A stretch of 38,900 nucleotides of DNA. It comes from Bacillota bacterium (GTDB lineage: Bacteria; Bacillota_I; Bacilli_A; RF39; UBA660). This document shows, piece by piece, positions 1 through 2,843 of this stretch (its first letter is position 1; every line of letters starts with the position of its first letter). The notes under the pieces were generated by a model that saw only the letters and a program-made list of their open reading frames with translations, did no database searches and was not told where the DNA came from. Location of the stretch: NCBI GenBank assembly GCA_015059155.1, contig SVAX01000010.1:1-38900 (forward strand), read 5' to 3'. The translations under genes were made by a program, and so were the position numbers.

Positions 1-20
1 TATAATTAATATTGTCTTAT

Positions 21-97
21 GGCGATGTAGCTCAGTTGGCTAGAGCACATGGTTCATACCCATGGTGTCGAGAGTTCGAATCTCCCCGTCGCTACCA
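21..97 (+). tRNA. tRNA-Met (CAT anticodon), CCA encoded
   Basis: GGCGATG...CGTCGCT acceptor pairing, GGTT-CAT-ACC anticodon region, GTTCGAATC T-loop, ACCA 3' end. Confidence 0.95.
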
Positions 98-231
98 ATA
101 GAATTCGACAGGCCCTTGTTTTACAAGGGTTTTTCTATTATTTCCTTATTTTCCAAAGGTTTACAAGGGATATTTTGTTAATATTTTTTCAAAAAAAGTT
201 TGTTTGTATTTTATAAAAACAAGACCAAAAA
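81..231. repeat. Copy 1 of ~150 bp imperfect direct repeat (tRNA 3' end + terminator + left-end motif)
   Basis: tctccccgtcgctaccaatagaattcgac..gcccttgttttacaagggtttttctattat and gttaatattttttcaaaaaaagtttgtttgtatt recur at a constant offset of ~1313 bp. Confidence 0.9.
113..138 (+). terminator. Rho-independent terminator after tRNA-Met
   Basis: CCCTTGT-ttt-ACAAGGG followed by TTTTT. Confidence 0.85.
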
Positions 232-337
232 TAGGAATCTAAGACTAAAATAAGACTAAAACAAGACCAAAATTTTTTTTAAAATTGATTCTTTTCTGTT
301 GTTTTAAAATATGTTATAATATTCATGGTGATAGTAA

Positions 338-1261
338 ATGAATTTAAAACAGAAACAAACTATTATAAATTCTATTATGATAAATGAAATTAGAGAAAAT
401 AATCTTGATACAAAATTTTATTCTTGTTGTCGTATAAATTATTATAATAGTGATTTTTTCAAAAAAATCCAAAAAGATAAAAAAAATAATAGAATAGTTA
501 AACTAGGAAATTTAATCATTCCATTAATATCAGGTGGTTTTCACGCTGAACATAATAATGAAAGAGATATAATAGTTTTTTTAGACAAAATTGACATAGT
601 ACCAGGTTTCTCATTACCACTTGTTAGTTTGTTAAAAACTACCTATCATGAACTTTATCATGCATTGCAAAATAAAGAACTAAATTCTACACCTACAGAT
701 ATGTCATACGATTTGTTTGCCAGTCAATGTGATATGTTTATTTGTAGTAATGAAAGTATTGATTTTTTAAAATATTATTTTACACGCAGTGGGCATGATA
801 CTCAAATGTTTGAAATTTTAGCTAATCTACATGGTGTAAAAAAAACTGAGGAATATTCACAAAATAATAACATTAAAATAAGTTTTCTAGAACAAATGAA
901 ATTAGACAAGCAGAAACAAAAATATCAATATCAGTATCAAAATTATGATTTAACTAAAAGATTAAATCTTATAATTGACAATTATGATAAATACATAAAA
1001 AATGATGAATTTAATAAAACAATTTTTGAACTATTCTTAAACGAAAACGGAACTGTAAAAGATATTAATACAATTTTTTCTAACGAAAATGTTTTAGATA
1101 TGGACCCTAAAATTTTATTAGCATTTATAAAAACTAATGCAATAAAAAAAGCTATTAGTGAAACAACACTAATAGAAAAAACGTCTTACTTTTTAAACGA
1201 ATTATTAACAAATGGTTCAACACAATTATTTCAAGAATCGGAAAACAAAAAAACTATTTAG
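338..1261 (+). CDS. Hypothetical protein with HExxH metalloprotease-like motif (TTYHELYHALQN)
   Basis: 307-aa ORF; HELYH fits the HExxH zinc-binding consensus; flanked by the direct repeats. Confidence 0.75.
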   Translation: MNLKQKQTIINSIMINEIRENNLDTKFYSCCRINYYNSDFFKKIQKDKKNNRIVKLGNLIIPLISGGFHAEHNNERDIIVFLDKIDIVPGFSLPLVSLLKTTYHELYHALQNKELNSTPTDMSYDLFASQCDMFICSNESIDFLKYYFTRSGHDTQMFEILANLHGVKKTEEYSQNNNIKISFLEQMKLDKQKQKYQYQYQNYDLTKRLNLIIDNYDKYIKNDEFNKTIFELFLNENGTVKDINTIFSNENVLDMDPKILLAFIKTNAIKKAISETTLIEKTSYFLNELLTNGSTQLFQESENKKTI

Positions 1262-1393
1262 CATTTAAACTTATTTTTTTATAATTCTCTATTGTTTGAT
1301 TATAAAAAAAATAAGACCAAAAACAAGCCCAAAATGATTTTAAGTTTTCATAAACCCTTATAAAATAAAGGTTTAAAGAAGAATAGCGCCAAC

Positions 1394-1544
1394 TCTCCTC
1401 GTCGCTACCAATAGAATTCGACGAGCCCTTGTTTTACAAGGGTTTTTCTATTATATGACCTAAAATCATTGAAAAATAAGGGTTAAAATGTTAATGTTTT
1501 TTCAAAAGAAGTTCGTTTGTATTTAAAAAAAACAAGACCAAAAC
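1394..1544. repeat. Copy 2 of the tRNA-Met 3'-end/left-end direct repeat
   Basis: tctcctcgtcgctaccaatagaattcgacgagcccttgttttacaagggtttttctattat ... gttaatgttttttcaaaagaagttcgtttgtatt. Confidence 0.9.
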
Positions 1545-1620
1545 AAGACCAAAACAAGACTGAAAAATTTTAGCCAAAAGTATCAAAATATAGGTTCTGA
1601 TAAAATTAAAAATTTGTCCA

Positions 1621-1665
1621 TTAACTAAAAAACAAGTTTCAAAATGAACTTGTTTTTTTAGTTAA
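1621..1665. terminator. Bidirectional terminator hairpin
   Basis: TTAACTAAAAAACAAGTT-tcaaaatg-AACTTGTTTTTTTAGTTAA. Confidence 0.75.
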
Positions 1666-1672
1666 TAAATTT

Positions 1673-2284
1673 TCAATAATCTGTTTTTACATAATACCAG
1701 TTGTCTTTTAAATTTTTAACACTTATTATCGGATGACCTGTTTCATTTTCTTTTATTAATCTTTCTCCATTAGAAGAATAAATCAATTGATGTGAACCAC
1801 TTAACATTCCCCTAAAAATCCAAAAACATATAACTTGTCCTTCTTTATCGTTTTTATATATAGTTATTTCTCCATCTGATGACAATTTTTTTAAATTTTT
1901 AGGCAATTCAGCATTACCATATTCATCTATCTCAATTTCATTATTCTTAACTTTTTCTATTATTTGCAACCTTTCTTCCTCATAAATATATAATTCTAAT
2001 ACCGTTTTTACATTTCTAAAAGGAAATACCAATCTTAGAAACATGGAACCTATAACTATTATAATAGCAATTAAACTTAATTTTGATTTATTTGTCTTTT
2101 TTATAATAAGAGCAACTAATATTACTACTATATTTAATAAAACAATAAATGCTTCCGGAATTAACTGAAATATAAACAAATTATCTAAAAGCATATCTTC
2201 ATACCAACCTAATATAAAATTTATAATAAATAAAATTAGTGATATTACTATAATTATTATTCCAATCTTGTCTTTATTTTTCAT
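1673..2284 (-). CDS. Hypothetical membrane protein (three predicted N-terminal TM helices, C-terminal soluble domain)
   Basis: Hydrophobic stretches IGIIIIVISLILFIINFIL, AFIVLLNIVVILVALII, LSLIAIIIVIGSMFLRLVF; likely start MKNKDK within the 1673-2296 ORF. Confidence 0.7.
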   Translation of the reverse strand: MKNKDKIGIIIIVISLILFIINFILGWYEDMLLDNLFIFQLIPEAFIVLLNIVVILVALIIKKTNKSKLSLIAIIIVIGSMFLRLVFPFRNVKTVLELYIYEEERLQIIEKVKNNEIEIDEYGNAELPKNLKKLSSDGEITIYKNDKEGQVICFWIFRGMLSGSHQLIYSSNGERLIKENETGHPIISVKNLKDNWYYVKTDY

Positions 2285-2388
2285 ATATTTACACACCTTA
2301 ATATTTACAAAACAATTATATCACACCAATATTGCTTTTTCAACATTCAAAACTTGCACAATTAATATATTTATGATAAAATGTATTT

Positions 2389-2498
2389 AGTGAAGGAAAC
2401 TTCATATAATATAAAAGGAACACTTAATATCGCATGTTGAGTGTTGCCCATATTTGTGCATCACCTAAATCATTGCTGAGTTAGGTGATTTTCTTTTC
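2389..2498 (+). ncRNA. Candidate antitoxin small RNA (~105-110 nt)
   Basis: Promoter TTGCAC (2354-2359)-N17-TAAAAT (2377-2382); hairpin AACACTTAA...TTGAGTGTT; terminator TCACCTAA..TTAGGTGA followed by TTTTCTTTT; no ORF. Confidence 0.65.
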
Positions 2499-2580
2499 AT
2501 ACTAAAACTATAAATAGTAATAATACTAATAGGAAGATAAGTATGATTAATGAAAAGATTAGCAAATCTTTCTTAAACAT
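2497..2580 (-). CDS. 27-aa hydrophobic peptide, candidate type I toxin: MFKKDLLIFSLIILIFLLVLLLFIVLV
   Basis: Strong SD GGAAGGAGGG 5 nt before ATG; promoter on minus strand TTGATA (2671-2666)-N16-TATAAT (2649-2644); single TM helix with KK near the N-terminus; convergent with the 2389-2498 RNA. Confidence 0.65.
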   Translation of the reverse strand: MFKKDLLIFSLIILIFLLVLLLFIVLV

Positions 2581-2843
2581 AATATCCCTCCTTCCTTTTT
2601 TGGAATTTGGCAATCACCCAACTATTAAATGTTCCTATATATAATTATATCAAACATATATTCTATATCAATAGTATATATTTATTTTTTTATTATTTTT
2701 GAAAATAAGACTAAAAACAAGACCAAAATTATTTTAATACCCTACTTTACCCTTATAAATAAAGGGTTTATAAAAAAATGAGATAGGCGTGTATCATCGC
2801 TAAAATTTTGATATTAAATTAGAACTATACTAGCAAAATTTTA

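Follow-up and report, generated by a model that had tools for sequence, protein, structure and literature searches.

Tandem integrase-less cassettes with siphophage-like attachment ends at a tRNA-Met gene, probable candidates for mobilisation in trans

Described non-autonomous elements and the tRNA-Met array

CIMEs are defined as derivatives of ICEs or IMEs that have kept attL and attR and have lost their integration genes (PMC5704250). Phage satellites known so far have been described with genes of their own for the integrase and excision factors that they need (PMC10803314). CALINs are cassette arrays without an integrase, for which the recombinase is supplied in trans, and MITEs are non-autonomous derivatives that keep recombinase-recognised ends (PMC11389934). 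The open-access papers that we searched do not describe cassettes that lack an integrase and are built on phage att ends.

In this work we analysed positions 1–38,900 of contig SVAX01000010.1 of assembly GCA_015059155.1 (called the window as a whole), which belongs to the genome of an uncultured gut bacterium, G000, whose assembly is 70% complete. Two small units lie in tandem downstream of its tRNA-Met gene, each with a left (L) end, cargo and a right (R) end (Table 1). They resemble CIMEs in that they keep attL and attR, contain no integration or transfer genes and have accreted at the end of a gene, with a decayed outer core in unit 2. CIMEs by definition descend from an ICE or IME; the ends of the units match a siphophage lineage. 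CIMEs are described as decayed ICEs or IMEs mobilised by a conjugative partner, whereas the present elements have temperate-phage ends, measure ~0.7–3.5 kb, have no parental backbone left and frequently carry toxin–antitoxin cargo. Like phage satellites (PICI, P4-like, PICMI, PLE), the units are small, integrated site-specifically and presumed to rely on a helper phage, but they encode neither an integrase nor an excision factor, and no gene for replication, regulation or packaging was recognised in them. They share with CALINs the arrangement of small cargo cassettes in arrays and a recombinase presumed to come from elsewhere; however, their sites are not attC but phage-type att sites that combine arm repeats with a core from a tRNA, and the presumed helper is a phage. 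As in MITEs, the ends are kept, although these are site-specific ends of the tyrosine-integrase type and the cargo is protein-coding. Finally, recognisable phage genes or gene fragments, the mark of a prophage remnant, were not found in any of the nine cassettes delimited here, apart from short AT-rich matches.

Anatomy and cargo of the array

The tRNA-Met gene is followed by L end 1, the 307-aa ORF, R end 1, a copy of the core and L end 2, then by the 207-aa membrane-protein ORF, a small toxin–antitoxin-like locus, R end 2 and a decayed third core. The sequence-only reading had described two tandem L–cargo–R units without a recombinase, and all of the parts that it named are present: no integrase is encoded in unit 1 or unit 2, and the two cargo regions are their whole content. 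The tRNA 3' end and terminator are repeated over 61 bp with 95% identity (81–141 and 1394–1454), and both L ends also give the tRNA a rho-independent terminator (110–132 and 1423–1445). The L ends are 86% identical (165–230 versus 1478–1543); the R ends are 92% identical over 36 nt (1308–1343 versus 2702–2737), with a second matching block at 81% (1354–1384 and 2749–2779). The arm unit is a 10-bp repeat, AAGACCAAAA, spaced by 11 nt at L ends and 12 nt at R ends, and from the position and repetition of these repeats we infer that they are integrase arm sites. The outer right core was suspected to be a decayed tRNA 3' end; it indeed reads TGTATCATCGCTAAAAT, a decayed copy of TCTCCCCGTCGCTACCA, and the same position in the sister genome G008 still reads CCGTCGCTACCA.

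Table 1. Features of the tRNA-Met array (window positions) and cassettes found in relatives (sizes)
Feature	Position or size	Strand	Remarks
tRNA-Met (CAT)	21..97	+	ARAGORN, Rfam
Attachment core, last 17 nt of tRNA-Met (TCTCCCCGTCGCTACCA)	81–97	+	17-mer also in phage attP
L end of unit 1	98..272	+	terminator, conserved TGTTAAT..GTTTGTATT block, arms AAGAC(C/T)AAAA at 221, 241, 252, 263
Unit 1 cargo: 307-aa protein, HELYH (HExxH-like) motif	338..1261	+	homologue in G004 tRNA-Arg cassette
R end of unit 1	1308..1393	+	arms at 1313, 1325 (12-nt spacing), then ACCCTTATAAAATAAAGGTTTA inverted repeat; colinear with phage attP
Internal core	1394..1410	+	1 mismatch with tRNA 3' end; R1–core–L2 is an attP-like junction
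L end of unit 2	1411..1565	+	terminator 1423–1445, conserved block, arms at 1534, 1545, 1556
Unit 2 cargo: 207-aa predicted membrane protein	1673..2296	-	homologous to 209-aa ORF of G008 tRNA-Met cassette
Candidate convergent antitoxin RNA	2355..2500	+	promoter-like 2355–2382; AATCACC..GGTGATT type stem near 2460–2490; proposed by analogy with Fst/par
Candidate type I toxin: 27-aa hydrophobic peptide MFKKDLLIFSLIILIFLLVLLLFIVLV	2497..2580	-	promoter-like 2671–2644, minus strand
R end of unit 2	2699..2789	+	arms at 2707, 2719; inverted repeat CCCTTATAAATAAAGGG
Decayed outer core, copy of tRNA-Met 3' end	2790..2806	+	intact in G008
G008 tRNA-Met cassette	3.0 kb		four ORFs and toxin–antitoxin locus; no integrase
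G011 tRNA-Met cassette	1.75 kb		no integrase
G004 tRNA-Met cassette	1.95 kb		CptN-like type III toxin, upstream tandem repeats; no integrase
tRNA-Glu cassettes of sister genomes	G008 ~0.7 kb, G011 ~1.1 kb		no integrase; ends resemble those of the C15 prophage
G004 tRNA-Arg cassette			homologue of unit 1 protein, 44–45%; R arms decayed
tRNA-Asn cassette, JAFSEX010000054 (goat-gut genome, same family)	1.5 kb		perfect core copy

The 307-aa protein of unit 1 belongs to no Pfam, NCBIfam or PADLOC family, and its HELYH motif is only suggestive; an AlphaFold model of this protein was set aside for its low confidence (mean pLDDT 46.8). In unit 2, the 27-aa ORF is hydrophobic and promoter-like sites are present on both strands, the one for the toxin scoring 11/12 with an extended -10. 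Neither the peptide nor the toxin–antitoxin RNA gave a Pfam, NCBIfam or Rfam match, and the architecture makes this locus a candidate type I (Fst/par-like) toxin–antitoxin system. Type I-like loci are found in seven of the nine cassettes (unit 2, both G008 and both G011 cassettes, the G004 tRNA-Arg cassette and the tRNA-Asn cassette), and toxin–antitoxin loci of either kind in eight, unit 1 being the exception. The eighth is the G004 tRNA-Met cassette, which carries a CptIN-like type III system (L050 9461–10108, on G004 contig C39): its toxin matches CptN (4rmo; phmmer E 3.2e-16) and is preceded by a 50-bp tandem repeat of 2.2 copies that has no Rfam match.

These genes are not specific to cassettes, as related type I-like loci are common elsewhere in the genomes (2–14 copies each in G000, G001, G008, G011 and others), mostly away from arms, and some reach ~96% identity between species that are 81–88% identical in their host DNA. 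The two G011 cassettes, at tRNA-Met and tRNA-Glu, have loci with 95% identity between them, an indication of copying inside this genome. Phages were not found to carry the cargo: both cargo proteins of the window had no match in IMG/VR, nor had the 307-aa protein in INPHARED; ten cargo proteins had no counterpart in the viral loci that we collected; one exact toxin–antitoxin pattern, a strict test, had no match in viral contigs; and ten viral contigs picked by pattern for arms of the AAGTCC type, as seen in G011 and G004 cassettes, yielded no related toxin–antitoxin loci or cargo.

A siphophage lineage with the same ends, and cassettes in relatives

A scan of viral contigs for arm pairs yielded a 41.4-kb phage record (IMGVR_UViG_3300029705_000302, IMG/VR) that carries a tyrosine integrase and an attP for this tRNA-Met, and is thus the integrase-bearing relative with the same ends that the sequence-only reading had proposed to look for. 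The C-terminus of its integrase, KQDQKQDQ, is encoded by the R arms, which are followed by the tRNA-Met core, the terminator and the L arms, and this arrangement constitutes attP. The R1–core–L2 junction of the window (1307–1554) is colinear with it, with 80% identity over 249 bp (E 9e-61). In two further viral contigs (L098, L110), this left end is also seen integrated at a tRNA-Met gene. G000 itself contains a sister prophage of ~49 kb (contig C15, 64.66–113.77 kb), which is integrated at tRNA-Glu(CTC) and encodes a 420-aa integrase (L007, L095, L096, L048). This prophage and the tRNA-Met phage have 31 of 43 proteins in common, with a median identity of 82% and 98% for the major capsid protein; identity between their integrases is only 29%, yet their arm repeats, AAGACCAAAA pairs, do not differ. 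The ends of the C15 prophage match those of the integrase-less G008 tRNA-Glu cassette (81% on the left, 89% on the right), and its left end also aligns with the G011 tRNA-Glu cassette. The lineage behind the ends thus consists of siphophages with capsid and tail genes, and is not an ICE or an IME; by sequence, the ends of the units are attL and attR of this tyrosine-integrase lineage. The integrase-bearing tRNA-Met phage shares only its att ends with the units, which are therefore not evident deletion scars of it.

Other tyrosine integrases, 28–50% identical, occur in viral contigs (L100/L120, L123, L124) and at two genome loci (L195, L206) with cores that resemble the 3' ends of other tRNAs and have the same arm repeats on either side; the arm sequence is kept across a diverse group of integrases. 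In G000, the best match to the integrase of the tRNA-Met phage is ~32% identical or less, in an assembly that is 70% complete. The C15 siphophage prophage carries tRNAs of its own. Contig C15 terminates exactly with window positions 1–127; the overlap, perhaps a trace of strain variation at this locus, is too weak a basis for conclusions.

The existence of att-bounded cassettes without an integrase, proposed for this locus alone, extends to relatives and to other tRNAs. Nine such cassettes were delimited at tRNA-Met, Glu, Arg and Asn genes in five genomes: units 1 and 2, the tRNA-Met and tRNA-Glu cassettes of both G008 and G011, the tRNA-Met and tRNA-Arg cassettes of G004, and the tRNA-Asn cassette of JAFSEX010000054. 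Their cargo is mostly different, so that different cargos occur between the same ends at the same tRNA, and the same ends recur at other tRNAs. Across the 16 genomes of the genus, arm pairs of the L type occur at 11 places and those of the R type at 14, and no place matched the reversed-pattern controls; these numbers exceed chance. The empty sites that the sequence-only reading had proposed to look for also exist, as the tRNA-Met genes of G001, G002, G003, G007, G009, G010 and G015 have neither a second core nor an arm pair. In the family as a whole, 19 of 291 genomes have a match to the R-type pair, and in the stretches that were fetched most of these pairs adjoin a tRNA 3' end. An HMM built from 52 integrases detected no nearby integrase at several of these tRNA-adjoining pairs; we give no rate, because some stretches are cut by a contig end or are left ends, where an integrase is not expected.

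Further cassettes are probable behind tRNA-Ser and tRNA-Leu and, in G004, at the 5' end of a protein-coding gene. At this last site (L353 1–660, contig C48), a toxin–antitoxin locus and R-type arms lie between two copies of a 26-bp sequence, which looks like the same kind of cassette, possibly in tandem, in a site that is not a tRNA. Behind a tRNA-Ser (L164 6283–7560, E07__bin2), a short L end with a toxin–antitoxin locus is tandemly repeated, and core copies are not clear. Beyond the G004 tRNA-Met cassette, a second L-like end is present where the contig stops (L050, C39). In two species, a solitary R end has next to it partial copies, inverted and decayed, of a tRNA-Ile/tRNA-Glu(TTC) pair (L086 425–490, L088 7960–8040).

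Fossils, landing pads or cassettes moved in trans

In the two window units and in the G008 tRNA-Glu cassette, phage similarity halts at the arms on the cargo side. Inside the nine cassettes we found no integrase remnant (best E 0.13) and no phage DNA beyond short AT-rich matches. A true remnant is available for comparison at a tRNA-Pro of another genome (L402), where a C-terminal fragment of an integrase remains at the R arms. Trimmed prophages are disfavoured, because no phage fragments are found inside the nine cassettes, and in that sense the term "remnants" used in the sequence-only reading fits poorly. In its other sense, immobile fossils, the units would derive from prophages or larger islands that decayed by deletion to att ends and a few genes, for example toxin–antitoxin genes, and would have no present mobility. 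We consider this rather unlikely, although several observations are in its favour: unit 2 has a decayed outer core, the divergence of cassettes between sister species is close to that of their hosts, a Met-specific helper was not found in G000, and both deletion remnants (L402) and solitary R ends (L145/L404) occur in the family. However, nine cassettes would have to be cut back to their arms by many deletions of similar precision, with every integrase fragment and clear phage gene removed. In addition, the cargo was not found on phages, conservation within the array is highest at the outer ends, and the cores of unit 1 are intact except for one mismatch. Alternatively, att scars may have served as landing pads between whose arms abundant chromosomal toxin–antitoxin loci or other genes were later inserted by ordinary recombination. 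The number of related loci off the arms and the near identity of some of them across species would suit this scenario, but it leaves unexplained why both ends were kept, why there is a tandem array with an internal core and why cargo abuts the arms at several different tRNA sites, and we regard it as improbable. Lastly, both units might be deletion scars of one larger integrase-bearing element at tRNA-Met, as the sequence-only reading had envisaged. A phage with the same ends does exist, but it has only these ends in common with the units, and the array has each type of end twice, L and R, around an internal core, which points to two integrations; the inner R and L ends with their core speak against deletion of a single element, and such an origin is extremely improbable. 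The other concern, that the ends are found only here, is removed by their presence in relatives and on the phage.

The comparison of sister genomes bears on the age of the array. Between G000 and G008, the outer ends are 96.7% (L, 120 bp) and 95.4% (R) identical, the interior and cargo 79–83% and the flanking host DNA 81–88%; better conservation of the ends than of cargo and flanks favours a constraint on working ends, or their exchange. The tRNA-Glu cassettes of G008 and G011 differ by ~8% and their flanks by 6–7%, a similarity that suggests descent over movement, and the cassettes common to sister species were, to judge from these values, inherited mostly by descent. The G008 tRNA-Met element combines a unit 1-like L end with cargo and an R end like those of unit 2, and would most simply result from a deletion within an ancestral array. 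No excised circle, phage-plus-cassette or helper-plus-cassette composite, or recent transfer was found. In view of the host-like divergence, the decayed core of unit 2 and the lack of a close Met-phage integrase among those found in G000, unit 1, whose cores are intact save one mismatch, seems able to be excised if a suitable phage arrives; unit 2 probably could not leave by itself, and the whole array may be old.

The best reading of the units, in our opinion, is that they are non-autonomous integrated cassettes with phage-type ends (arm repeats and core), small cargo and no recombinase, and that they belong to a group of cassettes of this Bacilli lineage whose arm repeats are shared with a temperate siphophage family. 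That they are CIME-like cassettes on phage att sites, mobilisable in trans, is the explanation that we find probable, with some reserve; the sequence-only reading had named mobilisation in trans as one option. A helper phage of this family with matching core specificity would supply an integrase, and an excisionase, in trans; the integrase would bind the arms, and recombination between the tRNA core and a downstream core would release the cassette as an attP-carrying circle. This circle could insert again at a tRNA 3' end, whether vacant or occupied, so that tandem arrays would build up, and cell-to-cell spread might occur by co-excision or co-packaging with the helper. Between helper visits, toxin–antitoxin cargo would stabilise the cassettes by addiction. 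We propose more tentatively, as a possibility short of likely, that these cassettes form a class of their own among the non-autonomous elements that depend on temperate phages, consisting of att ends and cargo (mostly toxin–antitoxin), ~0.7–3.5 kb in size, collected in tandem at tRNAs and moved in trans by phages that share the arms and have a matching core; phage integrases would then run an integron-like cassette economy.

Elements made of att ends and cargo would, if this is true, be close to the smallest satellites possible, and, having no integrase, such cassettes would be missed by integrase-based searches for mobile elements. Whether integrases that are only 29% identical and have different target tRNAs serve one cassette pool through one set of arm sites is a testable question. 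The existence of such cassettes would explain why toxin–antitoxin genes and genes of unknown function stand in tandem behind tRNA genes.
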